Made by a program: the position numbers and the translations under genes
Shown: positions 8,634-24,175 of the stretch, in pieces
Layout of the letters: the number at the start of each line of letters is the position of its first letter
Numbering within the stretch: position 1 is the stretch's first letter
Notes under the pieces: model-generated
Seen by the model: only the letters and a program-made list of their open reading frames with translations
What the model was told of the DNA's origin: nothing
The model's database searches: none
DNA from: Alphaproteobacteria bacterium
GTDB lineage: Bacteria > Pseudomonadota > Alphaproteobacteria > RF32 > CAG-239
Assembly: GCA_017479985.1 (NCBI GenBank)
Contig: JAFVBL010000017.1
Location: 1 to 33,409, forward strand
DNA: 33,409 nt
Direction: 5' to 3'

Positions 8634-9408
8634 TTTTTTTGACCTTATCAAATAAATTAAAGAAATTCTGTGTTGTTATATCTGCCGTCTCTTCTATGCT
8701 TAAACCCTTAATTTCCGATAATACCTGCGCCGTATTCACAACATACGCCGGTTCGTTGCGTTTGCCGCGATGCGGAGTCGGCGCCAAAAACGGTGAATCG
8801 GTTTCAATCAATAACCTATCTGTCGGTACGGTTGCAAAAATCTGCCGCAACTCTTCACTTTTTTTAAATGTTATTATTCCCGAAGCAGAAATATAAAAAC
8901 CGATTTCAAGTGCGGCTCGGCATAACTTTTCGGAAGACGAAAAGCAGTGCAACTCCCCCTTAAACGGTTGTTTTTTATAGTTATCCGTCAGCAGTTTAAT
9001 CATTTCTTCGTCTGCATCACGACTGTGCACAATCAGCGGAAGTCCGCTTGTCTGAGCCGCTTCGATATGTGTTTGAAAGACTTTCAGTTGCTGCACCTTG
9101 ATGTCGGCGTTATAATAAAAATCCAACCCGCATTCACCGATTCCGACCACATACGGCGATTGCGCCTGCTCATATAAAATATCTGCCGTAAAATCCGGAT
9201 ATTTGTCCGCCAATTCCGGATGCAAACCGGTGGTGGTATAAATATTTTTATGCGTTTTGCAAAATTCAATAATTTCCGGCGTTTTCGCCACATCATCGCT
9301 GACATCGAGAATGTATCCGACATTCATCTTGCGCGCGCGGACAACCGTATCTTCCCTATCCGTCTCAAAATCGTCCGAATTGATATGGCAGTGACTATCA
9401 ACAAACAT
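8626..9408 (-). CDS. TatD-family metal-dependent hydrolase/DNase
   Basis: A 260-residue TIM-barrel hydrolase of the TatD family. It shows the metal ligands DSHCHI (His6, His8), GIGECGLDFYY with the bridging glutamate, IVHSRDA with a His, LHCFS with a His, and the terminal aspartate in ETDSPFLAP. The length matches the family. TatD proteins act as 3'-5' exonucleases in DNA repair and turnover. Its ATG overlaps the holB stop by one base (position 9408), and its end overlaps the following hydrolase start, so it sits in a coupled operon. In many Alphaproteobacteria metG lies between holB and tatD; it is absent here. Confidence 0.93.
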   Translation of the reverse strand: MFVDSHCHINSDDFETDREDTVVRARKMNVGYILDVSDDVAKTPEIIEFCKTHKNIYTTTGLHPELADKYPDFTADILYEQAQSPYVVGIGECGLDFYYNADIKVQQLKVFQTHIEAAQTSGLPLIVHSRDADEEMIKLLTDNYKKQPFKGELHCFSSSEKLCRAALEIGFYISASGIITFKKSEELRQIFATVPTDRLLIETDSPFLAPTPHRGKRNEPAYVVNTAQVLSEIKGLSIEETADITTQNFFNLFDKVKKNE

Positions 9409-10460
9409 TATAACACCTTACAAATTTCAGTCAGCAGATTTATCAGCATAAAACGTTTATCCATATTGATATTCGCACAATCGGCAAATCCGCGTTCCGC
9501 TTTGTTCCAACAACCGTACAGAGCTTCGATGTCTTGGCAATTTTGAAGATTCTCTTTGATAAACTTTATAATCAGTTCCCGTATAATACCGAATTTATCC
9601 GCATCTGCAGCGATTTCCGCCGTAAAATCAAGTAAATCGTTCAGCGAATAATTACGGCGAGCGCATAAAATTGCGCACATATCTTCATACAATCCGACAG
9701 CATCAGTATCGGCATAAAGCATTGCCTTACCGATGCTGCCATTACTCATTTGTGTCAACCGCGCAATCATATTTTCGTTTAAATCACTGCGATAACGCCG
9801 AAGTAAACTTGCCACCGTTTCATCACTTAAAGTCCGTATCGGAAGTTTTGCGCAACGTGAACGAATGGTTGCCAACAACATTCCGGGATTATGACTGATA
9901 AGCAGAAGCAACGTTTTGGCCGGCGGCTCTTCCAGAATTTTCAGCAATGCATTTGCCGCCGCTTTATTCATATCGTCGGCACTGTCGATAATTACAATAC
10001 GCCATCCGTCATTAAACGATGTTTTTGTTAAAAACTCATTGACCTTCCGCACATCATCAACGCGAATAAATGCCGATTTTTTTAAGCTTGACAACTCTGT
10101 TTCATTAAGCGGTTCACCGTGTTTGATGGCGCTGATTATTTTTTTGCGATCGGTTTCGATATAATCACGCTCCAAAATCATTAAATCAGGATTTGAGTCG
10201 TTTGCAACTTGTTGAAAAATCGGCGAATTTTCAGAAATATTCAGCGAAGTGTACTGTTCTTTTTTTGAAGCATCGGCTGCCAGCAGAAAACGGGCAATTT
10301 TATACGCAAGCGTTGCTTTGCCAATTCCCTGCGGACCGCTTAAAATCCACGCGTGATGCATTATATCGGATTTATAGGCGTTCAAAAAAACTTTTTCGGC
10401 CTCTTCCTGTCCGATGAGGAAGCTGTTTTTCTGCGGTTTAATATTTTGTTCTTCCGCCAT
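9408..10460 (-). CDS. holB: DNA polymerase III delta' subunit
   Basis: This 350-residue protein is the delta' subunit of the clamp loader, which works with delta and tau/gamma to place the sliding clamp on DNA. FLIGQEEAE leads into a P-loop GPQGIGKAT (42-50). VIIDSADDMNKAAANALLKILEEP is the characteristic Walker B and sensor region (about 150-175), and TIRSRCAKL is the SRC motif. The four-cysteine zinc module of DnaX-type subunits is not seen. The ATG overlaps the tmk stop by one base (position 10460), and the gene likewise overlaps tatD, so expression is tightly coupled. The identification is strong from both motifs and gene order. Confidence 0.94.
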   Translation of the reverse strand: MAEEQNIKPQKNSFLIGQEEAEKVFLNAYKSDIMHHAWILSGPQGIGKATLAYKIARFLLAADASKKEQYTSLNISENSPIFQQVANDSNPDLMILERDYIETDRKKIISAIKHGEPLNETELSSLKKSAFIRVDDVRKVNEFLTKTSFNDGWRIVIIDSADDMNKAAANALLKILEEPPAKTLLLLISHNPGMLLATIRSRCAKLPIRTLSDETVASLLRRYRSDLNENMIARLTQMSNGSIGKAMLYADTDAVGLYEDMCAILCARRNYSLNDLLDFTAEIAADADKFGIIRELIIKFIKENLQNCQDIEALYGCWNKAERGFADCANINMDKRFMLINLLTEICKVL

Positions 10461-14861: not shown

Positions 14862-14890
14862 TTGATTTTTGGCAAAATATAAAATATAGT
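14862..14890 (+). promoter_or_regulatory. Sigma-70 promoter for the orphan gene at 14947
   Basis: TTGATT (14862-14867) and TATAGT (14885-14890) are 17 bp apart. The expected transcript start is near 14897, leaving a 50-nt leader without a Shine-Dalgarno site. Confidence 0.6.
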
Positions 14891-14912
14891 GTTTTAAAAA
14901 TGTATATTATAG

Positions 14913-14936
14913 CAATTATTTATTACAAATCTCAAA
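14913..14936 (+). promoter_or_regulatory. Shared leader element before the SD-less gene at 14947
   Basis: The 12-mer CAATTATTTATT (14913-14924) and the 8-mer ATCTCAAA (14929-14936) recur before the gene at 23205. The 8-mer ends 10 nt before this ATG, where a Shine-Dalgarno would normally be. See also 17527-17534. Confidence 0.4.
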
Positions 14937-14946
14937 CAATCTGCGT

Positions 14947-15636
14947 ATGGGAAGAATACTATTATTTTTGGTGATTGCGGTCATTATTTTAGTACCGATG
15001 TGGTATTTCAATGATGCCTTAAAGAAGAGGAAGAATGCCTCTCAACCTCAACAGACTGATGACAACGAGGCCGAACTTGATGAATCCGACATTGATTCTG
15101 TTCTGCCGCCAGACGGTAAGTGTTCGCCGACAATGGCCAACTGCTGTGTTACGGAAGACTATCGCCACGCAAATTCGCGTGCGGCGTGCGCCAAGGCATT
15201 GGCGGCTGACGCACAACTTCGGTACTTGTGGTCCAAGCTGGAGAAAGTGAATCCCGAAAATGTTCATAATCGACAGCCGGACGCAATGGACAAGTGGTTC
15301 ATCGACAATGTCGAAGAGTTTGTCAAATACGGTGAAGTGATGGCCTTTATCGAGTACCATCCGGCACTGGAAGACTTGTTTTTGGACAGTTTGAACGAAC
15401 CGTGGAATAACGTTGAGTTGCAAAAGAGAATCATCAGTGTTTGCCGCGGCTCGTATCAGGTAAACTATGTCAATCTGTTGTGCAAGTACCTGTGTCGTTG
15501 GGACTTGGTCTCGCCGGTGAAAGCTGTGGTGTTTTATGACCCGCGATTTGCACGCGCCAAGATAATCTACGACACGTATTATCCGTCGCGACACAAGCGT
15601 CGTCGCCACAGAAACAAAAAAACGAAGACCGCTTAA
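14947..15636 (+). CDS. Unrecognised single-pass membrane protein with helical repeats
   Basis: A 229-residue protein that I do not recognise. Residues 3-20 (RILLFLVIAVIILVPMWY) are a membrane anchor or uncleaved signal. A charged linker follows, then a stretch with CSPTMANCC and AACAKALAADAQL. The C-terminal half looks like short helical units with a repeated aromatic-Pro step: FIEYHPALEDLF (about 135-150) and VVFYDPRFARAKIIYDTY (about 197-215), similar in spacing to the clearer repeats of the gene at 23205. It ends in a very basic tail (SRHKRRRHRNKKTKT). There is no Shine-Dalgarno site, but it has its own promoter and a strong terminator, so it is monocistronic. It reads with fewer AT-rich codons than its neighbours. 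The repeat relation is inference. Confidence 0.8.
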   Translation: MGRILLFLVIAVIILVPMWYFNDALKKRKNASQPQQTDDNEAELDESDIDSVLPPDGKCSPTMANCCVTEDYRHANSRAACAKALAADAQLRYLWSKLEKVNPENVHNRQPDAMDKWFIDNVEEFVKYGEVMAFIEYHPALEDLFLDSLNEPWNNVELQKRIISVCRGSYQVNYVNLLCKYLCRWDLVSPVKAVVFYDPRFARAKIIYDTYYPSRHKRRRHRNKKTKTA

Positions 15637-15643
15637 ATTTCAG

Positions 15644-15690
15644 AAAAAATCCCGACAAGCCGCTGTGCTTGACGGGATTTTTTCTGTTTT
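15644..15690. terminator. Bidirectional intrinsic terminator
   Basis: A 17-bp stem (15644-15660 with 15667-15683) has one A-A mismatch, a 6-nt loop, A-rich on the left and T-rich on the right. It can end both the plus-strand gene at 14947 and the converging minus-strand gene that stops at 15699. Confidence 0.9.
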
Positions 15691-15698
15691 ATAAACAT

Positions 15699-17387
15699 TT
15701 ATTTCGTACGACTGTGTTTTTTAATCATCGGTCTGATATCCACGCGACCGGTTGTTTGAAAATTTTTCAAACTGTCAATATATTCCTGATGTTCTTTTAA
15801 ATAAGCTTCCTGTGCCGCCGTATTACAATTTTTAAATACCTGAGGAACGCGTTCAAATTCACGAATCTCATCAAAAATCATTTGGTTATCTTCTTTTGAG
15901 GCATACAACAACAGCGGTTCACGCAAATTCGGCAGATTTATGTGCAATAACTCACTTCTGCGCGGGCGAAATTCCGTATTTTCCGGTTTCGGAGGTATCG
16001 GCGTTTCATTATTTTTCTTTGAGCTTTGCGCTGTTCTTTCCAATTGTGCGCTTAACTTCGGATACTGATAAAATTCAAACATAAAATCACAACGATTTAC
16101 ATTATCGGAAATATTGTCAAAGTAAGATTTTATCGGAACTCTTTGCACCGAAAAATCGGCAATCATCGATGTTAAATCCAATCCGCGGAAAGTATACATT
16201 TTTTGCGCCGTTTTATCTAAATTTTTATCTCGTGCATTCAACTTGCAGCGATCTACGCTGAATAATGGAAAATTATGCACCGCATTATGAAAGGATTTAT
16301 CACTGTATGCACTGTTAATAACCTTGCGGAAGCAAAGATTAACCAGTTGCGGATTGGCTTCCAATTCCTCCGCGGTTTTATTTCGAAGCATATATTTAAG
16401 CTGTGACGAAATCAGCAAATGCTGAAAAATTTCTAGTTGTTTATCCAAACCGACCTCTGACATCAGCGGATAATTCTGATTAACAATATCCATAATTTCG
16501 ACACCGCCGGCTTTCATAAAACGTATTTTCGGCAACTGCTCGGCAAGCAAAACTTTATCATCTTTTGTTTCTATATCTTGTATGAAATAATCAGCAAAGT
16601 TAACACCGCCGATTGTATACATATGATTTAATATTTTTTTATAATTTTTCTTGCTGTTCGATACCAATCCGACCCGTCCGACATATCGTTGCAACATACG
16701 AAAGGTTGTCGGACTGTAATGGCGCGAATACTTTTCCATCCACATTTTCATCGTACCGTTTGCAATTAAAGAGCGTTCTTTTTCTATGTCTGCGGGATTA
16801 TTACTTTCCGGTTTGATACGACCGGCTGCCACTTCATCAAAATAAAACTTCATATAAGATTTTTTATATCTGTCGATAATTTTCTTTTTTTCCGCTCGGG
16901 TCGGTGCAGCCAAATATTCATAACGTGCCGTTAATACAGCAGCCATATTGGCGGAAATTTCATCGTGCATACAAAGTTTATAGTATTCCGTCGGTGTATA
17001 ATAGTATCTTGTACGATAACGCAACTCATCATTATGATGATGCCATTCTTCGTGTGCAAAATACGGTAATTGCATTCGGTAACTGTTATTGTTTTCAACG
17101 TAATAACGCGTAATCAAACCGGCACTGTAAAAAAGCAGAGTCGAACCGGCTTTTTCCAATGTGTCCGTTCTGTATTCGACATTCAGAATCGGATTCTTGA
17201 TTTTAGGAATCGATACTTGTTGAAGCGAATCCTTAACTGCCTGTTCCGTTTTGGCCTTTTCTTTCAGTTCGTTTATTCGTCTGCTGTGAACGGCATCACC
17301 ATACACACCAAGCCCTAGAAAACCGGCAACGGTTGTCGGCCCCAGATAACGTTTTATATATTTTTTGAGATTTTGCCGCAATGTCAT
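15699..17387 (-). CDS. Unrecognised protein with a zincin-like HEEWH motif, putative metalloprotease
   Basis: A 562-residue protein. I chose the ATG at 17387, which has GGAG 6 nt upstream and lies just after a perfect promoter; the longer reading frame begins upstream of the expected transcript start. A weakly hydrophobic segment at about 13-29 could be a membrane anchor. HEEWH (112-116), followed by more His, fits the HExxH zinc site of metalloproteases. HDEISANMAAVL (about 141-152) supplies a possible third ligand Glu143, spaced as in gluzincins. The remaining 400 residues are mostly helical and charged with no recognised domain, and a Pro-rich part (about 465-490). It is monocistronic. Protease activity is inference from the motif alone; the family is unknown to me. 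Confidence 0.82.
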   Translation of the reverse strand: MTLRQNLKKYIKRYLGPTTVAGFLGLGVYGDAVHSRRINELKEKAKTEQAVKDSLQQVSIPKIKNPILNVEYRTDTLEKAGSTLLFYSAGLITRYYVENNNSYRMQLPYFAHEEWHHHNDELRYRTRYYYTPTEYYKLCMHDEISANMAAVLTARYEYLAAPTRAEKKKIIDRYKKSYMKFYFDEVAAGRIKPESNNPADIEKERSLIANGTMKMWMEKYSRHYSPTTFRMLQRYVGRVGLVSNSKKNYKKILNHMYTIGGVNFADYFIQDIETKDDKVLLAEQLPKIRFMKAGGVEIMDIVNQNYPLMSEVGLDKQLEIFQHLLISSQLKYMLRNKTAEELEANPQLVNLCFRKVINSAYSDKSFHNAVHNFPLFSVDRCKLNARDKNLDKTAQKMYTFRGLDLTSMIADFSVQRVPIKSYFDNISDNVNRCDFMFEFYQYPKLSAQLERTAQSSKKNNETPIPPKPENTEFRPRRSELLHINLPNLREPLLLYASKEDNQMIFDEIREFERVPQVFKNCNTAAQEAYLKEHQEYIDSLKNFQTTGRVDIRPMIKKHSRTK

Positions 17388-17408
17388 AAGTATCTCCCGA
17401 TTGGTTTG

Positions 17409-17437
17409 ATTATAACCGCTTATTCTTTTTTTGTCAA
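17409..17437 (-). promoter_or_regulatory. Perfect consensus sigma-70 promoter for the HEEWH gene
   Basis: On the minus strand TTGACA (17432-17437) and TATAAT (17409-17414) are exactly 17 bp apart. Strong constitutive transcription is expected. It stands back to back with the plus-strand promoter at 17469. Confidence 0.8.
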
Positions 17438-17468
17438 GCAATCATATCAATTTGACCCTATTTTTCTC

Positions 17469-17497
17469 TTGACAAAAATCAATGTATTTTATATACT
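17469..17497 (+). promoter_or_regulatory. Near-consensus sigma-70 promoter for the gene at 17546
   Basis: TTGACA (17469-17474) and TATACT (17492-17497) are 17 bp apart. The expected start near 17504 gives a leader of about 42 nt. Confidence 0.8.
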
Positions 17498-17526
17498 GAT
17501 TCGAGTTACGATATAATTTCGATACA

Positions 17527-17534
17527 AATTCAAA
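17527..17534 (+). promoter_or_regulatory. TCAAA leader element before the SD-less gene at 17546
   Basis: AATTCAAA ends 11 nt before the ATG, at the same distance as ATCTCAAA before 14947 and 23205. No GGAG-like site is present. AT-richness makes a chance match possible. Confidence 0.3.
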
Positions 17535-17545
17535 GATTCAAATAT

Positions 17546-18106
17546 ATGGCAAAAAATTATTTAGAGCTAATCAAAAATGGTCAAGCTGATGAACTTTATG
17601 TCAGCGTGTTTGATAACCATCTCGACAACAACACCGACTCGTCGTATGTTGATGTTTTAGGTGAAGAAGCTGAAGTTGCTTTGATGCAAAAAGCATTAGC
17701 AATGCAGAGGCACGAGGCTGATCCGTGGTTGGAGTTTATTCAGCAATACAACACAAAATATCCCTTTTGCAATAAGGCTATTGATGTGTTGTTTGATAAC
17801 TTCGACAACTCCAAATCGTTGCCGCTTCTGATTTCCCTGCTCAGCCGCTTCGGATACAGCGAGTCTCAGGGGATTCGGCTCTGCAAAATTATGTTGCAAA
17901 GTAACGATCAACATTTGATTGTACAACTGCTGCAACTGTTGTGTGAGCAAGGACGCATTTTCTATCCGGAAATCCATCGTCTTTTGGAAAGTATTGACGT
18001 ACGGATTAAGGATACGGAATACAAGGAGCACGCAACCTTTGCCGAGTCATACAGACAGGCAATTGCCAACTATCGGAAGATTAACAATCTCGAACGTTTT
18101 TATTGA
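17546..18106 (+). CDS. Unrecognised cytoplasmic helical-repeat protein
   Basis: A 186-residue protein with no signal peptide or membrane helix. It appears wholly helical. EEAEVALMQ (about 40-48) resembles the EAEMRLFE step of the repeats at 23205, and later stretches KAIDVLFDNF and GIRLCKIMLQSNDQHLIVQLLQLL look like further diverged units, giving perhaps four. Family and function are unknown; a scaffold or protein-interaction role would fit a helical repeat. It starts at an ATG without a Shine-Dalgarno site, has a near-perfect promoter and a strong terminator, and is therefore a single-gene unit. It is divergent from the HEEWH gene. Confidence 0.8.
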   Translation: MAKNYLELIKNGQADELYVSVFDNHLDNNTDSSYVDVLGEEAEVALMQKALAMQRHEADPWLEFIQQYNTKYPFCNKAIDVLFDNFDNSKSLPLLISLLSRFGYSESQGIRLCKIMLQSNDQHLIVQLLQLLCEQGRIFYPEIHRLLESIDVRIKDTEYKEHATFAESYRQAIANYRKINNLERFY

Positions 18107-18120
18107 TTGTTGGTTATTCA

Positions 18121-18166
18121 AAACAAAAGCCCCCGTTATTTGATATAACGCGGGCTTTTGTTTTTA
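18121..18166. terminator. Strong bidirectional intrinsic terminator
   Basis: A stem of 19 positions per arm (18121-18139 with 18145-18163) with a single C-C mismatch, a 5-nt loop and T-tracts on either strand. It ends the gene at 17546 and can also end the smpB transcript from the other side. Confidence 0.92.
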
Positions 18167-18279
18167 CCCCGATCCGCACAGCGACGAATGAGATTATCGC
18201 GTCGGTTGCATTACAACCTCCTCATAATAACGATTTTCTTTTTGTTATAAAGTTTAATAATACTTTTTTTTAACAAGGC

Positions 18280-18759
18280 TCAATGAGCCATAATACGGGC
18301 TTTTTCACGTGCCCAATCACGTTCTTTAGCGGTTTCACGTTTATCATAAAGTTTTTTGCCCGTCCCCAAACCGATGAGCAACTTGGCGCGGCCGTGATTA
18401 TCAAAATACAGTTTGAGTGCCACCAGAGTTGTGCCTTTTCTGTTCAACGAATTGATAATCTTTACAATTTCCTTATGTTGCAACAATAATTTACGGTTGC
18501 CGCGCTCGGCGTGACCGGCATAACCTTTATATTCATACGCGGCAATAAACATATTTGACATATACAATTCGCCGCCTTCAATAATACCGTATGCATCGCG
18601 AATATTGGCGTGACCGAGCCTCAGCGATTTAACTTCGGTACCGCTTAAAACCAAGCCGGCAGTATAAGTATCACCGATAAAATAATCAAACCTTGCCCGC
18701 GGATTTTCTGCCACGGTACCGGTTGAAATAAAATCCGATCTTTTTACTTTTTTTGCCAT
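18280..18759 (-). CDS. smpB: SsrA-binding protein SmpB
   Basis: A 159-residue protein that binds tmRNA and delivers it to stalled ribosomes for trans-translation. Typical features are the N-terminal NPRARFDYFI, LSGTEVKSLR, the RNA-binding beta-barrel with NMFIAAYEY, and the C-terminal YDKRETAKERDWAREK tail that enters the mRNA channel. The ATG at 18759 shares its first base with the bactofilin stop (TGATG), so the two are coupled; a GTG one codon earlier is also possible. Downstream are 113 nt and a terminator. The tmRNA gene itself is not in this window. Confidence 0.96.
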   Translation of the reverse strand: MAKKVKRSDFISTGTVAENPRARFDYFIGDTYTAGLVLSGTEVKSLRLGHANIRDAYGIIEGGELYMSNMFIAAYEYKGYAGHAERGNRKLLLQHKEIVKIINSLNRKGTTLVALKLYFDNHGRAKLLIGLGTGKKLYDKRETAKERDWAREKARIMAH

Positions 18760-19211
18760 CACTTCACGGCTTTTAATTCTGTTTCTTGTTTATTTTCGTT
18801 TTCCGCCGTCGGGATGCTTTTGACAGTTGCGGCTGTTAATTTGGAACGCGGAACACACGTTCCTTCCACATAAGCTCCCGGCGCCAGCGCAATTTGCGTA
18901 TAGCAAGTATTACCGATTAAACGGGCATCTTTTGCCACAAAAAGTTCCTCCGTATCAATCGTACCGTTCACTGTTCCGTAAACACTGAGCGATTTTGCTT
19001 TGATATCACCGGCAACATAACCGTGCACACCGACAATCACTTCGCTGCACATAATATTACCCTCGATACGACCGTCAATCTGTACGGTTTCACCTCCCCA
19101 AATATCACCCTTGATTTTGGTATCATAACTGATGATACTCGGCACCAAAGCTTTAGAGTTTTTACCGATGGCGGCAAGTTTCAAACATATCAATTTTCTT
19201 AAATTGCGCAT
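18759..19211 (-). CDS. Bactofilin (polymer-forming cytoskeletal protein)
   Basis: A 150-residue bactofilin. I chose the ATG at 19211 because GGAG lies 7 nt upstream; the longer frame starts upstream of the promoter's -10 box. The core (about 25-115) is a compact right-handed beta-helix with regularly spaced hydrophobic turns: TKIKGDIWGGETVQIDG, GRIEGNI, VHGYVAGDIKAKSLSVYG, TVNGTI and DARLIGN. The termini are flexible and charged, as usual. Bactofilins polymerise without nucleotides, often on the membrane, and organise cell-wall enzymes. A short hydrophobic N terminus (LRKLICLKLAAIG) could help membrane attachment. It is cotranscribed with smpB. Confidence 0.92.
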   Translation of the reverse strand: MRNLRKLICLKLAAIGKNSKALVPSIISYDTKIKGDIWGGETVQIDGRIEGNIMCSEVIVGVHGYVAGDIKAKSLSVYGTVNGTIDTEELFVAKDARLIGNTCYTQIALAPGAYVEGTCVPRSKLTAATVKSIPTAENENKQETELKAVK

Positions 19212-19233
19212 TTTTATACTCCTTATATTTTTA

Positions 19234-19262
19234 TTCATAATCGCAATATTATCAATTGTCAA
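19234..19262 (-). promoter_or_regulatory. Sigma-70 promoter for bactofilin-smpB
   Basis: On the minus strand TTGACA (19257-19262) and TATGAA (19234-19239) are 17 bp apart, just upstream of the GGAG and ATG of bactofilin. Confidence 0.65.
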
Positions 19263-19374
19263 CGTTATCAAAAATCAGCGTTGCATAAGTTTTACACTCA
19301 TCGTTTTTACATACCCAGATGAATATATACATACCTTTTTATACTTTTATATATGATAATTCGAACTTTTTTTA

Positions 19375-19402
19375 TGGACAATCAATGATAAATTATTATA
19401 AT
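19375..19402 (+). promoter_or_regulatory. Candidate promoter for the efflux operon
   Basis: TGGACA (19375-19380) and a perfect TATAAT (19397-19402) are 16 bp apart. The expected start near 19409 leaves a very short leader with GAGG at 19415-19418. Confidence 0.5.
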
Positions 19403-19423
19403 CGGCTTCAAAGAGAGGTTAAA

Positions 19424-20599
19424 ATGAATGTACAAAATCAAAAAAAAATTACAATCAAGCATATTGTTTATATAATTCTTGCCGCACTGATTATTTATTT
19501 CGGCCGCGGTTTGTTCGGCAACAAAAAATCGGCGGAAGGATTTAAGACTCAACCGCTGAGCATCGGTGCCATTACCGAGAGTATTACCGCATCGGGTACG
19601 ATTAACCCGTTGTCGACCGTTTCCATCGGCACGCAGGCTTCCGGACGCATTGCCGAAATCTACGTGGATTATAACTCCGAGGTTGAAGAAGGACAGCTTT
19701 TGGCTCTGATTGACCAAGACAATGCCAAAGCAAACGTGGCACAACGCGAAGCCGCGCTCGAAATTGCCAAAGCTCAGGTTGAAGTGGTGGAAAACAACAT
19801 CAAATATTATAAAAAAACATTGGATAGAATATCCAAATTAAACGCCGCCAAATATTCGGCAGAAAAAGAACTTGAGGCCGCCGAACGCGACTATGATAAT
19901 GCTGTTGCTCAATTATCCCTTGAAAAAGCACAGGTTAAACAAGCTGAAGCCTCGCTTAATTCGGCACAAACCGAACTGTCTTACACCGAAATCAAATCGC
20001 CGGTCAACGGTATCGTCATATCAAAGGCGGTGGAAGTCGGACAAACCGTTGCCGCCAGTTTTTCAACACCTGAATTGTTCTCGGTGGCGGAAGATTTAAC
20101 CAAAATGCAAATTGAAGCATCGGTTGTTGAAGCCGATATTGCCAAGGTTAAAGAAGGTCAAACCGTACGTTTTAGCGTTGACAGCTATGCCGATGAATAT
20201 TTTTACGGCAACGTCGTACAAGTCCGCAACGAAGCCGTCACCACCTCCAACGTTGTTTCTTATACGGTTGTGATTGAGATTGACAACAGTGATATGAAGC
20301 TCAAACCGGGAATGACCGCAAATGTTGAAATCATTACCGCCGATGTGAAAGATGCACTGCTCGTACCAAATCAGGCTCTGCGTTTTTATATGGATAACAC
20401 CAAACGCTATCAAGACCGCGGCGTATGGGTATTACGCAACGGTGAACCGACGCGTATCAGCATTATGCTCGGCGTCAGCGATGATGCCAACACGCAAGTT
20501 ATTTCCGACGAGCTGAAAGCCGGTGATGAAGTTATTCTATCCAAAGCCGGTGCCGAAAATAAAGACCAGCGCGCAATGAGAATGAGGATGCCACGCTGA
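19424..20599 (+). CDS. macA: MacA-like periplasmic adaptor (HlyD family)
   Basis: A 391-residue adaptor of a tripartite ABC efflux pump. I chose the ATG at 19424, which has GAGG 5-6 nt upstream. Residues 13-29 are the inner-membrane anchor. The lipoyl half-motif SGTINPLSTVSIGTQASGRI is followed by a long helical hairpin (about 90-185, rich in Ala, Glu and Lys), the second lipoyl half TEIKSPVNGIVISKAVEVGQ, and beta-barrel and membrane-proximal domains ending in KDQRAMRMRMPR. MacA stimulates its ATPase partner and docks a TolC-type channel, which is not encoded here. The stop overlaps the next start (TGATG). Macrolide, peptide or lipid substrates are all possible. Confidence 0.88.
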   Translation: MNVQNQKKITIKHIVYIILAALIIYFGRGLFGNKKSAEGFKTQPLSIGAITESITASGTINPLSTVSIGTQASGRIAEIYVDYNSEVEEGQLLALIDQDNAKANVAQREAALEIAKAQVEVVENNIKYYKKTLDRISKLNAAKYSAEKELEAAERDYDNAVAQLSLEKAQVKQAEASLNSAQTELSYTEIKSPVNGIVISKAVEVGQTVAASFSTPELFSVAEDLTKMQIEASVVEADIAKVKEGQTVRFSVDSYADEYFYGNVVQVRNEAVTTSNVVSYTVVIEIDNSDMKLKPGMTANVEIITADVKDALLVPNQALRFYMDNTKRYQDRGVWVLRNGEPTRISIMLGVSDDANTQVISDELKAGDEVILSKAGAENKDQRAMRMRMPR

Positions 20600-21303
20600 T
20601 GAAACCGTTAATTCAACTTAAAAACATACATAAAAGCTATCCGCTTGACGGTTTTGATTTGGAAATTTTAAAAGGCATTGACTTGGAAATAAACGCCGGT
20701 GAGTTTGTGGCGATTATGGGACCTTCCGGCTCCGGTAAATCTACTCTGATGAATATTTTGGGGTGTCTCGATACCCCGACTTCCGGCAGTTATATCTTGG
20801 ACGGTGTAAATGTCGAAAACTTGAGTGCCGACGAGCTGGCGACCATTCGCAATCGAAAAATCGGCTTTGTGTTTCAAGGTTTTAACTTGCTTTCGCGCAC
20901 ATCGGCAATGGAAAATGTCGAGTTGCCGATGGTATATGCCGGTGTAGACGATGACGAACGCTTGCAAAAAGCAAAAGATGCCCTTATCAGCGTCGGTTTG
21001 GGTGAGCGTCTGTATCATCAGCCGAATCAACTTTCGGGCGGACAACAGCAACGTGTGGCAATTGCACGCGCCATTGTCAACAATGCTCCGATTATTTTTG
21101 CCGATGAGCCGACCGGTAACCTTGATACCAAAATGAGTGTGGAAATTATGCAACTTTTTTCCAAACTCAATGCCGATTTGAAGCGTACGATTATACTGGT
21201 GACGCACGAAGAAGATATTGCGCTTTATGCCAAACGAATCATCAAAATCGTCGATGGCGAAATTCATTCCGACACAGTCAATAAAACAAGGAAAATCAAA
21301 TGA
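20599..21303 (+). CDS. MacB-type ABC transporter ATP-binding protein
   Basis: A 234-residue ATPase of the MacB/LolD family. It has a Walker [10 protein letters not shown] (about 41-49), Q-loop VFQGFNLL, signature [14 protein letters not shown], Walker [14 protein letters not shown] and switch VTHEED. ABC proteins of this type drive mechanotransmission across the inner membrane rather than moving a substrate through a pore. Here the ATPase is separate from its permease, unlike Escherichia coli MacB where both are fused. The gene overlaps the adaptor by one base and the permease by four (ATGA), so the three products should be made in step. Confidence 0.94.
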
Positions 21304-22529
21304 TTGAATTAAAAACCATTTTCAAAATCGCCATTCGTGCGATTGAGGCAAACAAAATGCGTTCGGTACTGACCAGTCTCGGTATTATTATCGGCGTAGC
21401 GGCGGTGATTATCTTGCTTTCCATCGGCAACGGCACGCAGCAATCAATTGAAAATGAAATGCGCAGTATGGGTACCAATCTCGTTATGATTCGTTCCGGT
21501 GCCTCCACTTCCGGCGGTGCGCGTATGGGACGCGGCTCGCAACCGACCTTGAAAAACGGCGATGCCGATGCCATACAGGAAAAAATTGCGGCAATCCGTC
21601 TGGCGGTGCCGGTTGTGAACGACAGCGGACAGTTGGTGTATGGCAATACCAACTGGTCAACAAGTATTGTCGGCACAGATAACCGCTATTTTCAGATTAA
21701 AGAATGGGATTTGGCTTACGGGCGCTTTTTTACCGAAAATGATATTCGAACCGCCAATAAGGTTGTGATTTTGGGACAAACCGTAGCACAGGAATTGTTT
21801 GGAGATATTGATCCTTTAGGCAAAACAATCCGAGTTAAAGGTTTGCCGTTTGTTGTTATCGGCACTCTGACGGCACGCGGCCAAAGCGGTCCGGGGCAAG
21901 ATCAGGACGATATGGTTTATATGCCGCTTTCGACCGCGCAGAAAAAAGTTTCCGGCACACAATTTCCGGATATGGTTAATATGCTGATGTTGCAGGCGCA
22001 AACAGCGCAAGATACATACACATCGCAAGATGAAATCAAAGCCCTGTTGCGGCAACGTCATAATTTAGGCTTAAATAAAGAAGATGACTTTACGATTATG
22101 AACTTTACGCAATTTATGGAGATGATGCAAAGCTCATCGCAGACAATGACGATTTTTCTCGGATTTATTGCCTCGATTTCACTGATTGTCGGCGGCATCG
22201 GCATTATGAACATTATGCTGGTTTCGGTTACGGAACGCACGCGTGAAATCGGTATTCGTATGGCAATCGGCGCCAAAAGCTGGGATATTCGTCTGCAATT
22301 TTTAATGGAAGCCCTGATATTATCGCTCATCGGTGGCTTAATCGGCGTGGCATTCGGAATTATCGGTGTGTATGTTTTACCGAAAATAACATCAATTACG
22401 GCAGTTCTATCTACATTTTATGTACTGTTGCCGTTCGGTTTTTCCGGAATCGTCGGATTGATTTTCGGTTTCTTTCCGGCATACAAAGCCTCCCTGCTCA
22501 ATCCGATTAACGCACTGAGATATGAATAA
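21300..22529 (+). CDS. MacB-type ABC transporter permease (FtsX-like)
   Basis: A 409-residue inner-membrane permease with the FtsX/MacB topology. One N-terminal helix (about 20-43) follows KMRSVLTSLGIIIG. A large periplasmic domain (about 45-275) contains ERTREIG-preceding MacB core segments such as GNGTQQSIE, and three C-terminal helices follow (about 280-308, 330-358, 375-398). Within the loop after helix 2, VTERTREIGIRMAIGAK is the coupling helix that touches the ATPase. It is the last gene of the efflux operon and ends 2 nt from the converging alkyltransferase gene. No terminator was seen between them. Confidence 0.93.
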   Translation: MIELKTIFKIAIRAIEANKMRSVLTSLGIIIGVAAVIILLSIGNGTQQSIENEMRSMGTNLVMIRSGASTSGGARMGRGSQPTLKNGDADAIQEKIAAIRLAVPVVNDSGQLVYGNTNWSTSIVGTDNRYFQIKEWDLAYGRFFTENDIRTANKVVILGQTVAQELFGDIDPLGKTIRVKGLPFVVIGTLTARGQSGPGQDQDDMVYMPLSTAQKKVSGTQFPDMVNMLMLQAQTAQDTYTSQDEIKALLRQRHNLGLNKEDDFTIMNFTQFMEMMQSSSQTMTIFLGFIASISLIVGGIGIMNIMLVSVTERTREIGIRMAIGAKSWDIRLQFLMEALILSLIGGLIGVAFGIIGVYVLPKITSITAVLSTFYVLLPFGFSGIVGLIFGFFPAYKASLLNPINALRYE

Positions 22530-22531
22530 TT

Positions 22532-23029
22532 CTATAACAAGATTTTTTCGAGCATAAGTAATTGCTTTTTACGCTCCAAACCGCCGGCATAACCGGTTAA
22601 TTTACCATTGGCACCAAGAACACGATGGCACGGAATAATCAACGAAATCGGATTATGACCGACTGCATTGCCGACCGCACGCGCCGACATTGTCCGAAGA
22701 TTATTTTGTGCGGATATTTTGGCGGCAATATCACCGTATGTTATTGTTTGTCCGAACGGAATCCGTAACATAATTTTGCATACGGAATACCGAAACGGTG
22801 TTGACGGAAGCAACAAACGCGGAGTAAAATCAGGCTGTTGACCGCCAAAATAACAGTCAAGCCATTGTATTGTCCGTTCAAAAACAGGAATCTTTTTTTC
22901 AATACATTCCGTACCGACCGTTGCAGCAAAATATTTTTGCCCGTCGAACCACAATCCTGTTATGTCCGTACCGTTACCTGCCATAGTCATTGCCCCGAGC
23001 GGTGATTGATAATGCCATACAAAGTCCAT
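22532..23029 (-). CDS. ogt: Methylated-DNA--protein-cysteine methyltransferase
   Basis: A 165-residue suicide repair protein that removes methyl groups from O6-methylguanine. The active site IPCHRV (132-137) contains the acceptor Cys134; upstream are PFGQTITYGDIA and RAVGNAVGHNPISLI, the helix-turn-helix and arginine finger region. I chose the ATG at 23029 because GGGAG lies 7 nt upstream; 20 codons upstream is only a spurious extension. The length and absence of an AraC-type domain fit an Ogt-like protein rather than Ada. It is monocistronic with a promoter candidate. Confidence 0.94.
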   Translation of the reverse strand: MDFVWHYQSPLGAMTMAGNGTDITGLWFDGQKYFAATVGTECIEKKIPVFERTIQWLDCYFGGQQPDFTPRLLLPSTPFRYSVCKIMLRIPFGQTITYGDIAAKISAQNNLRTMSARAVGNAVGHNPISLIIPCHRVLGANGKLTGYAGGLERKKQLLMLEKILL

Positions 23030-23060
23030 ATTTTGTCTCCCGCACACTTTTGTTTCTGTG

Positions 23061-23089
23061 ATTTTACAAAAAATACAAGCCGAAATCAA
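23061..23089 (-). promoter_or_regulatory. Candidate sigma-70 promoter for the alkyltransferase
   Basis: On the minus strand TTGATT (23084-23089) and TAAAAT (23061-23066) are 17 bp apart, about 32 bp upstream of the start. Confidence 0.5.
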
Positions 23090-23111
23090 TCATTAAAACC
23101 AAAAATTTATG

Positions 23112-23140
23112 TTGACAAAAGTTATAATAAAGCGTACGCT
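23112..23140 (+). promoter_or_regulatory. Sigma-70 promoter for the repeat gene at 23205
   Basis: TTGACA (23112-23117) and TACGCT (23135-23140) are 17 bp apart. The start near 23147 leaves a 58-nt leader and excludes the in-frame ATG at 23109 as the translation start. Confidence 0.6.
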
Positions 23141-23171
23141 GAAAACACTTTTCAAAATGATTATAGAACAA

Positions 23172-23193
23172 CAATTATTTATTTCATCTCAAA
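23172..23193 (+). promoter_or_regulatory. Shared leader element before the SD-less gene at 23205
   Basis: CAATTATTTATT (23172-23183) and ATCTCAAA (23186-23193) match 14913-14924 and 14929-14936. The distance to the ATG is 11 nt, against 10 nt in the other copy. Confidence 0.4.
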
Positions 23194-23204
23194 ATATTAC
23201 AATT

Positions 23205-24119
23205 ATGAAGAAAATCGAAAAATTTTTCAAAACCTATGTAAGGGAAACCTTGTTGGTAGTAGTAAGCGTGTTTCTGATGCTGTGCGTTTATGCCGGCGCA
23301 GATAAGACTTCCGAAAGCGGTTCGATTTACGGAACTTTCTCTTTGATTATCCCCTCCGTGATATTCTGTGTTACGGTTGTTGTGCTCGGACGGCATATCC
23401 TTGAGGTAAAAACACTGGAACGCTTGAAATTTCTGTCCGCGGTCGTGTTTTTGGCAGCTCTCGGAATCCTGATTGCATACAGTGCATACGTTCAACAGGT
23501 ATTTCCGGCAAGCGACCTTATTAAATTGGGATGTTGCGGAATAATATGCACCCTTGTAAACGGCGGATATTTGGACGCACGCGGCGATCAACTGAAAGAA
23601 CTCGAATTACTCAAAGAAAATCGTCCGGACGAGTATCTGCGCGCCTTGATTAGAGCTAAGCACGAGTTGACAGAAATTGAGCAACTTACATTATTTAATT
23701 TGGGTGATGAAGAACATTTGCTGTTCCAATATATGCAATATGCGGAATTGTATCCGATGGCGGAAATAAAGTTGATTGAGCAACCGTATCTTCTGCATTT
23801 GTTACAACGCCTGCCGCGCTATGCTTTTTCCGATGACGGAGATGCACGGCTGTTTTATCAGCCCAACACGCCGGAATTGGTTTTGCAATACATTCAAAAC
23901 GGCAACTGTTTCAATTCGGCCAACGAGCTGAAAATGTTTGATTTGCCCAACGCAGCGGAAGTTGTTGATGCATACATTGCACACAATCCGTTGTCCGATG
24001 AAGCGGAAATGCGTCTGTTTGAACTGCCGAATGCACGAGAGCTGGTAGAGTATTACGCCGAAGAATACGATATGTCTGATGAGGCGTATAATTTAGCCGA
24101 AGAAAAAGGTTGGGCTTGA
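23205..24119 (+). CDS. Unrecognised multi-pass membrane protein with five tandem ~27-residue repeats
   Basis: A 304-residue protein I do not recognise. Four hydrophobic segments (about 16-32, 45-63, 76-94 and 105-118) make an N-terminal membrane domain. A coiled-coil-like charged stretch (125-152) follows. Residues 155-289 are five repeats of 26-28 residues with the consensus AExxLFxLPNAxELVxxYI, and a partial sixth unit ends the protein. The repeats are probably cytoplasmic paired helices forming a binding surface. The ATG at 23205 is chosen because the promoter lies between it and the upstream in-frame ATG. There is no Shine-Dalgarno site. A terminator follows at 24140, so it is a single-gene unit. 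It shares leader and, less clearly, repeat features with the genes at 14947 and 17546. Confidence 0.83.
   Translation: MKKIEKFFKTYVRETLLVVVSVFLMLCVYAGADKTSESGSIYGTFSLIIPSVIFCVTVVVLGRHILEVKTLERLKFLSAVVFLAALGILIAYSAYVQQVFPASDLIKLGCCGIICTLVNGGYLDARGDQLKELELLKENRPDEYLRALIRAKHELTEIEQLTLFNLGDEEHLLFQYMQYAELYPMAEIKLIEQPYLLHLLQRLPRYAFSDDGDARLFYQPNTPELVLQYIQNGNCFNSANELKMFDLPNAAEVVDAYIAHNPLSDEAEMRLFELPNARELVEYYAEEYDMSDEAYNLAEEKGWA
23667..24116 (+). repeat. Coding tandem repeat, five ~81-bp units plus a partial one
   Basis: At protein level the units begin at residues 155, 182, 208, 236 and 263, and a remnant at 290. Best conserved are units 3-5: ARLFYQPNTPELVLQYI, LKMFDLPNAAEVVDAYI and MRLFELPNARELVEYY. 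The DNA is more diverged than the protein, so the repeat is old rather than a recent slippage product. Confidence 0.8.
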
Positions 24120-24139
24120 TAAGTTTTTTGATACCAAGA

Positions 24140-24175
24140 GAAACCGTCGGGAGATTTTTCCGGCGGTTTCTTTTA
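24140..24175 (+). terminator. Intrinsic terminator of the repeat gene
   Basis: An 11-bp stem (24140-24150 with 24160-24170) contains one T-G wobble and is followed by TTTTAT. It lies 21 nt after the stop. Confidence 0.85.

Follow-up and report, generated by a model that had tools for sequence, protein, structure and literature searches.

A start-locked leader signal without Shine-Dalgarno sites marks a genus-wide class of mostly Pfam-less genes in Alphaproteobacteria

The DNA analysed here, referred to as the window, is the whole contig JAFVBL010000017.1 (33,409 nt) of the alphaproteobacterial assembly GCA_017479985.1, whose parent genome comprises 1.18 Mb in 43 contigs and is 83% complete. 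Three genes on its plus strand, starting at 14947, 17546 and 23205 and encoding the proteins P0001, P0002 and P0003, belong to a genus-wide and mostly Pfam-less class of genes with a common start signal. We consider it probable that this class initiates translation without Shine-Dalgarno (SD) pairing, by means of an A/U leader and a U at position -1. The signal can be read directly from the leaders, and the mechanism is what we infer from it. Our confidence in the mechanism was lowered slightly because the block of A in the leaders is only moderately above that of A/T-rich controls.

A preliminary description of the window had placed a TCAAA word shortly before the three ATGs and had suggested an unusual initiation signal. 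The word indeed ends 10, 11 and 11 nt upstream of the ATGs at 14947, 17546 and 23205, and none of the three starts has an SD site, which was defined throughout as any of GGAG, GAGG or AGGA at -18 to -4. There is strong support for the suggested unusual start signal, which reaches far beyond the three genes. The literal TCAAA is a local form of a wider element, consisting of YYAAA, an absence of G and a T at -1, which the preliminary description had not noticed.

Homologs were searched for in a panel of 39 genomes, 23 inside the genus and 16 outside. The first set comprised 50 leaders, the window's own genes included: 12 of P0001 (of 13 loci, one being cut by a contig end), 18 of P0002 (all loci found), 6 of P0003, 10 of repeat-protein genes from one relative and 4 of long paralogs. 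The P0003 search had given 20 loci, from which the 6 homologs and the 4 long paralogs were taken, the rest being partial, weak or repeat-only. Among these leaders 47 were kept, with 7 of the 10 repeat genes; the three left out started inside repeats or lay at a contig end. Four further genes of the window's genome (F53, F63, F66 and F70) were picked by start context and used as protein queries inside the genus. For these families, not in the order of their names, 11 of 11, 9 of 12, 16 of 21 and 4 of 4 rows were used, those without an N-terminus or too weak being dropped, and removal of the four query genes left 36 blind homologs (10, 8, 15 and 3), whose starts were picked by rule. The class set contains 87 leaders from the homologs of the three genes, the repeat-protein kin and the four further families; 86 of them could be counted, one being too short.

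None of the 87 leaders carries an SD 4-mer (0 of 50 in the first set and 0 of 36 among the blind homologs), while 311 of 592 control genes have one at the first ATG. SD sites have not been lost genome-wide: in the 28% of the window's genome that was sampled, an SD precedes at least one possible start of 174 of 300 genes. A T at -1 was found in 82 of 86 class leaders (46 of 47 in the first kept set and 33 of 36 in the blind set) and in 37 of 81 A/T-rich SD-less control genes (41 of 85 in an earlier comparison). Within the same 86 leaders, G amounts to 1.9% at -18 to -5 and 14.9% at -45 to -28 (Wilcoxon, 5e-15); the corresponding values for C are 10.5% and 12.7% (p 0.045). The A/T-rich SD-less controls (n = 81) have no such gap, with 13.9% G at -18 to -5 against 10.0% further upstream, and only 17 of them are free of G at -18 to -5, compared with 67 of the 86 class leaders.

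The A block has a preferred place as well. YYAAA ends 9-12 nt upstream of the ATG in 48 of 86 class leaders, for which shuffling gave an expectation of 4.8, and in 13 of 81 A/T-rich controls, and it is located at about -16 to -11 where present. In the 47 kept leaders G is nearly absent from -18 to -7, A is dominant at -13 to -11, and T is dominant at -16 and -8. Over the 86 leaders, A at -14 to -11 reaches 53-72%, compared with 46-59% in the A/T-rich controls. TCAAA itself ends 10-11 nt upstream in 13 of 86 class leaders, but in only one of the 588 control genes read at their first ATG, which disfavours chance similarity between A/T-rich leaders, the alternative raised in the preliminary description. 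The contrasts with the A/T-rich SD-less controls are understated, because these include some genes that were later picked by the start-context matrix. The predicted folding energy of -40 to +20 is -3.33 kcal/mol for the class, -4.93 kcal/mol for shuffles and -5.85 kcal/mol for SD genes. As a separate feature, G makes up 34% of position -4, yet 0-2% from -18 to -7 and 2% at -3, and many class leaders close with GCTT, GATT or GCGT before the ATG.

The signal transfers between protein families when it is read relative to the start codon. A start-locked matrix (-20 to -1) trained on P0002 leaders separated the other groups from the A/T-rich SD-less controls with an area under the curve (AUC) of 0.86 for P0001, 0.82 for P0003 and 0.88 for the repeat genes. 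Training on P0001 leaders gave 0.86 for P0002, 0.85 for P0003 and 0.96 for the repeat genes, and matrices trained on P0003 or on the repeat genes reached 0.70-0.92 on the other three groups. The matrix from the 47 leaders was then frozen and applied to stretches of three further genomes. It picked 9 of 94 SD-less genes in G007, a member of the genus without detected homologs of the three proteins, 2 of 97 in G023, a member of another family with an even more A/T-rich genome (GC 30%), and 4 of 161 in G028, also of another family, while its match rates over all ATGs were 0.9%, 1.2% and 0.6%, respectively. The blind homologs of the four window-genome picks, all within the genus, scored at least 0 in 27 of 36 cases. 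New orphan families were thus found by the matrix without the use of any protein sequence.

The start signal marks genes without recognised relatives. Only 1 of 27 genes picked by start context inside the genus had a Pfam match (0 of 18, plus 1 of 9 in G007), whereas among controls of 80-320 aa the count was 18 of 20 for SD genes and 11 of 20 for SD-less genes with low scores; 3 of 6 picks in the two other families had one. Six of 24 high-scoring genes had been excluded beforehand as they had an SD at another start, and the 18 picks include three repeat-family kin missed by the filter. P0001, P0002 and P0003 themselves have no Pfam match at E<=0.001, their best E values of 0.06-0.2 lying under the curated cut-offs. 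Homologs were present in 12, 17 and 12 of the 39 genomes, respectively, and in none of the 16 genomes outside the genus. In a set of 84,980 species P0002 gave one short match, 33% over residues 16-83, on a Roseburia scaffold, although records near the window were possibly excluded from that set. Comparison with solved structures yielded nothing solid; for P0002 there were only summed weak matches to repeat arrays, of which no single stretch passed alone. Spread by phages or plasmids was unsupported, with 0 matches for P0003 in 50,697 phage records and 0 for P0002 in 72,556 plasmid records.

The base composition of the leaders suggests how these genes may be started. G is lost and C is nearly unchanged at the place where an SD would pair with CCUCC, which suggests avoidance of SD pairing; if structure in general were being avoided, one would expect C to be depleted too. 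We propose that the 30S subunit, with its ordinary anti-SD tail kept, would not be held by SD pairing on the mRNAs of the class. Instead it would land on the unstructured A/U leader, where the A block would lie near bS1, in line with a proposal for Flavobacterium. Extended pairing of UAUG with the initiator tRNA through base 37 would then fix the start codon. The idea that a U at -1 adds one more pair with base 37 of this tRNA is known, and a 2003 paper by Esposito et al. is said to concern this extended pairing. G would have been purged so that the class mRNAs stay free of SD pairing, and the rate or condition of initiation to which these mRNAs respond may differ from that of SD genes. For Flavobacterium johnsoniae, the upstream A region is placed near protein S1 in an excerpt of PMC6847099.

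An ordinary anti-SD is present at the 16S tail in one member of the genus. This tail, together with the gene content, would fit an alphaproteobacterium of the gut. An Rfam search detected no 16S in 21 genomes, and the exact tail pattern was found in 1 of 27. Pairing of TCAAA with the 16S tail was rejected, as the tail of that genus member has no complement to it, and pairing elsewhere in the 16S gave only an A-run facing the T-runs of the leaders, which was unconvincing.

Several points weigh against initiation without SD pairing as the common property of the class. An SD 4-mer occurs at only 4.5% of random places, hence its absence alone says little. The excess of A at -13, -12 and -11 is only moderate (70, 68 and 66%, compared with 59, 53 and 47% in the controls). 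In Flavobacterium johnsoniae, which is without SD sites, translation is stimulated by A at -3, -6, -12 and -13 according to an excerpt of PMC6847099, whereas A at -3 and -6 is not above the controls in our class (44 of 86 and 43 of 86, compared with 46 of 81 and 40 of 81). The folding energy of the class is indistinguishable from that of the A/T-rich controls (-3.96 kcal/mol, p 0.18). The search for bS1 recovered a full-length gene from 8 of 13 genomes of the genus, but none from the window's genome or from G007, which is rated 100% complete; the missing genes may be assembly gaps. Some of the picks may be spurious open reading frames, which would likewise be Pfam-less. Homologs are non-independent data points, and where ATGs were nested, the start was in some of the first 47 leaders picked by eye. 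The four long paralogs fit the matrices worse throughout (AUC 0.54 to 0.76), and 3 of 10 homologs of F70 lack the T at -1, accounting for all three blind exceptions.

Some of these points would also fit a passive outcome, in which young lineage-specific genes never gained an SD and A/T-rich leaders together with a need for weak folding give the pattern. Low-fold SD-less genes are common in bacteria according to an excerpt of PMC5397173, the class leaders are very A/T-rich with a folding energy equal to that of the A/T-rich controls, and chance SD 4-mers are rare. However, the families are kept across the genus, with protein identities to the query of mostly 22-67% and up to 88% for F53, and still no leader of the set has an SD 4-mer. 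The loss is confined to G and to -18 to -5, and the A/T-rich SD-less controls show neither the G gap nor the frequent T at -1. We therefore regard a passive origin as rather unlikely.

The class could also be co-regulated by a small RNA or RNA-binding protein that is specific to the genus and binds the leader. ATTATT and YYAAA blocks recur in the leaders of unrelated families, and the three genes of the window are single-gene units with terminators. No fixed long motif exists, though, and only position-locked composition transfers. When the collected homolog leaders were compared, as proposed in the preliminary description, the start-locked matrix transferred between families and free-position motifs did not. 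The failure of the free-position motif finder to transfer between families also counts against the main reading: the P0002 matrix matched 0 of 29 other leaders and the P0001 matrix 2 of 18, 2 of 6, 1 of 7 and 0 of 4, and a free-position motif was rejected. Because what is shared is the position relative to the ATG, a ribosome signal seems a better description than a free-standing operator, and we consider co-regulation through an RNA binder improbable. Co-ordination of the three genes, which had been suggested earlier, is unproven, and no common operator was found.

The shared leader might also go back to a single ancestral family whose genes were duplicated together with it. The three genes had been described as a possible gene family, but the P0001 protein has no detectable relationship to P0002 and P0003. 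By sequence comparison, P0003 is a member of a helical-repeat-like superfamily together with the repeat genes of genome G013 and the long paralogs, with P0002 and F53 as possible weak relatives, which would agree with a common ancestor. Yet P0001, F63, F66 and F70 are unrelated (F63, F66 and F70 had no BLAST relationship to the three original proteins or to each other, and nothing below E 0.1 was found when representatives were compared) and bear the same signal, making common descent a very unlikely source of it. It is also very unlikely that the pattern near the ATG represents the -10 region of leaderless mRNAs. An A/T bias at -20 to -10 is discussed in this sense for some phyla in an excerpt of PMC5397173, and the best promoter-like site does end 0-9 nt before the ATG in 6 of 45 leaders, but the predicted end of the best sigma-70-like -10 hexamer lies at a median of 44 nt upstream (36 of 45 at 30-69 nt), which makes short leaders probable, and -12 is A, not T, in 71% of the class.

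In G013, the contigs C35, C89, C71, C62 and C25 (L075-L079) carry clustered genes of LPNA-type repeats of about 27 residues, with 50 separate P0003 matches, and the seven repeat genes with clear starts have closely similar SD-free leaders. This looks like a recent family expansion. In G003, the F53 gene adjoins rpsA, which encodes bS1, and both have the same orientation (C113:2249-5099). The F53 gene of the window's genome is located less than 300 nt from a contig end, and the search of that genome gave no full-length rpsA.

Initiation without SD pairing has known counterparts. The class resembles the Kozak-like starts of Bacteroidota, as described in an excerpt of PMC6847099, in having no SD, an A-rich block at -14 to -11 and an ordinary anti-SD. 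In that description SD sites are lacking throughout the Bacteroidota, whereas here most genes bear an SD and one class avoids it. As the class differs from the Bacteroidota in two features, genome-wide SD loss and A at -3 and -6, we class it as a variant of SD-independent initiation. The 45 plus-strand genes of Bacteroides phage crAss001 have T at -1 in 34 cases and A at -13 in 34 cases. Unlike the G-depleted class, however, the phage leaders keep G (10 of 45 at -11), and 8 of 45 have an SD 4-mer. The upstream element of phage T7 gene 10 is an A/U translation enhancer located 5' of an SD. Some class leaders have a similar A/U-rich word about 20-25 nt upstream, but no SD follows downstream of it. 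In an alphaproteobacterium, most T7 derivatives were independent of the enhancer according to an excerpt of PMC8748333. The weakly folded A/U leader around the ATG is also reminiscent of the SD-less mRNAs with unfolded starts in SD-using bacteria, as presented in excerpts of PMC3121790 and PMC5397173. In contrast to what is given there, the class studied here has position-locked bases, with the nearly constant T at -1 and a G-specific gap, and its signal tracks the absence of Pfam matches.

SD usage has mostly been treated as a property of the genome or of the expression level. Here it splits by gene novelty within one SD-using genus, with G removed at the place of the SD. No description of such a gene class came up in literature searches covering open-licence papers. 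The class lends itself to testing, under natural conditions, which features an SD-free start requires (U at -1 and A at -11 to -13), and the start-context matrix is a sequence-based finder of lineage-specific genes in uncultured bacteria. As far as sequence data go, two start codes may exist side by side in one cell. A stronger and rather speculative version, to which we give little credence, is that the two codes are deliberate, SD for conserved genes and SD-blind for lineage-specific ones, so that the availability of the anti-SD would shift output between the two sets; bS21, if divergent or lost, would be a candidate for the switch. In Flavobacterium, bS21 is among the proteins forming a pocket in which the 16S tail is hidden, according to an excerpt of PMC9976891. 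As a side observation, bS21 (TIGR00030, genomes G000-G012) is divergent in the genus: it scored 42-48 bits in 8 of 13 genomes and was undetected in the other 5, among them one genome rated 100% complete and two at 95%, while 7 of 9 genomes outside the genus gave 55-73 bits.

The three genes of the window all lie on the plus strand and have a similar layout. Gene 1 (14947..15636) encodes P0001, a protein of 229 aa with a single N-terminal hydrophobic segment. Its window at -18 to -5 (14929..14942) is free of G and includes TCAAA at 14932-14936, and the T at -1 (14946) is present in 12 of 12 leaders of the family, its own counted. A promoter-like site, TTGATT-17-TATAGT, is located at 14862..14890, and a terminator hairpin with a U tail follows at 15641..15686 (-27.4 kcal/mol, z -7.5). 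Gene 2 (17546..18106) encodes P0002, with 186 aa and no hydrophobic segment. One G is present in its window (17528..17541), TCAAA lies at 17530-17534, and the T at -1 (17545) is found in 18 of 18 family leaders, its own counted. The promoter-like site TTGACA-17-TATACT is at 17469..17497, and the hairpin with its U tail is at 18120..18164 (-24.0 kcal/mol, z -7.1). Gene 3 (23205..24119) encodes P0003, whose 304 aa contain three hydrophobic segments and then repeats of about 27 residues. The window at 23187..23200 is again free of G, with TCAAA at 23189-23193, and the T at -1 (23204) occurs in 5 of 6 family leaders, its own counted. Its promoter-like site, TTGACA-17-TACGCT, is at 23112..23140, and its hairpin with a U tail is at 24136..24174 (-24.6 kcal/mol, z -6.0). 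The start of gene 3 was checked against upstream in-frame ATGs at 23109 and 23157, and it is correct, the upstream frame being lost in the two nearest homologs.

The earlier assignment of near-consensus promoters to all three genes holds for gene 2, with 11 of 12 matches to the consensus. It does not hold for gene 1, with 9 of 12, or for gene 3, whose site is absent from a simple scan and scored 10.9 against 5.7 for shuffles with a sigma-70-like matrix. The hexamers and spacing of gene 1 are identical in the homologs L023 and L024; TTGATT-17-TATAGT is found in the two nearest relatives of P0001 and TTGACA in five remoter homologs. Since these hexamers differ, the promoter appears to vary while the SD-free start persists. 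TTGACA was present in 13 of 17 testable leaders of the P0002 family, the window's own counted. A terminator of its own for each gene, as previously described, was borne out by the three strong hairpins (z -6.0 or lower), although a simple terminator scan lists only that of gene 3. The word CAATTATTTATT is common to two leaders, as had been seen, beginning 34 and 33 nt before the ATG at 14913 and 23172. A 24-nt pattern from the leader of 14947 had no second occurrence in the genome with up to 3 mismatches, so that in its literal long form the match does not recur across the genome.

Ordinary SD sites had been ascribed to the neighbouring genes in general. This applies to most of them, 19 of the 25 other main open reading frames listed, and not to all, where an SD at any start within the first 60 codons was counted and one of the 19 (9408-10460) is doubtful. 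Between 19424 and 22529 there is an ordinary run of genes with SD-type 4-mers at their starts, which we take from their sequences to be a MacA-like membrane fusion protein and a MacB-like ABC exporter pair. All three genes occur in the same order on one contig of G003 (C86, L092), with matches at 117, 2517 and 7482, and the neighbourhood is therefore conserved.

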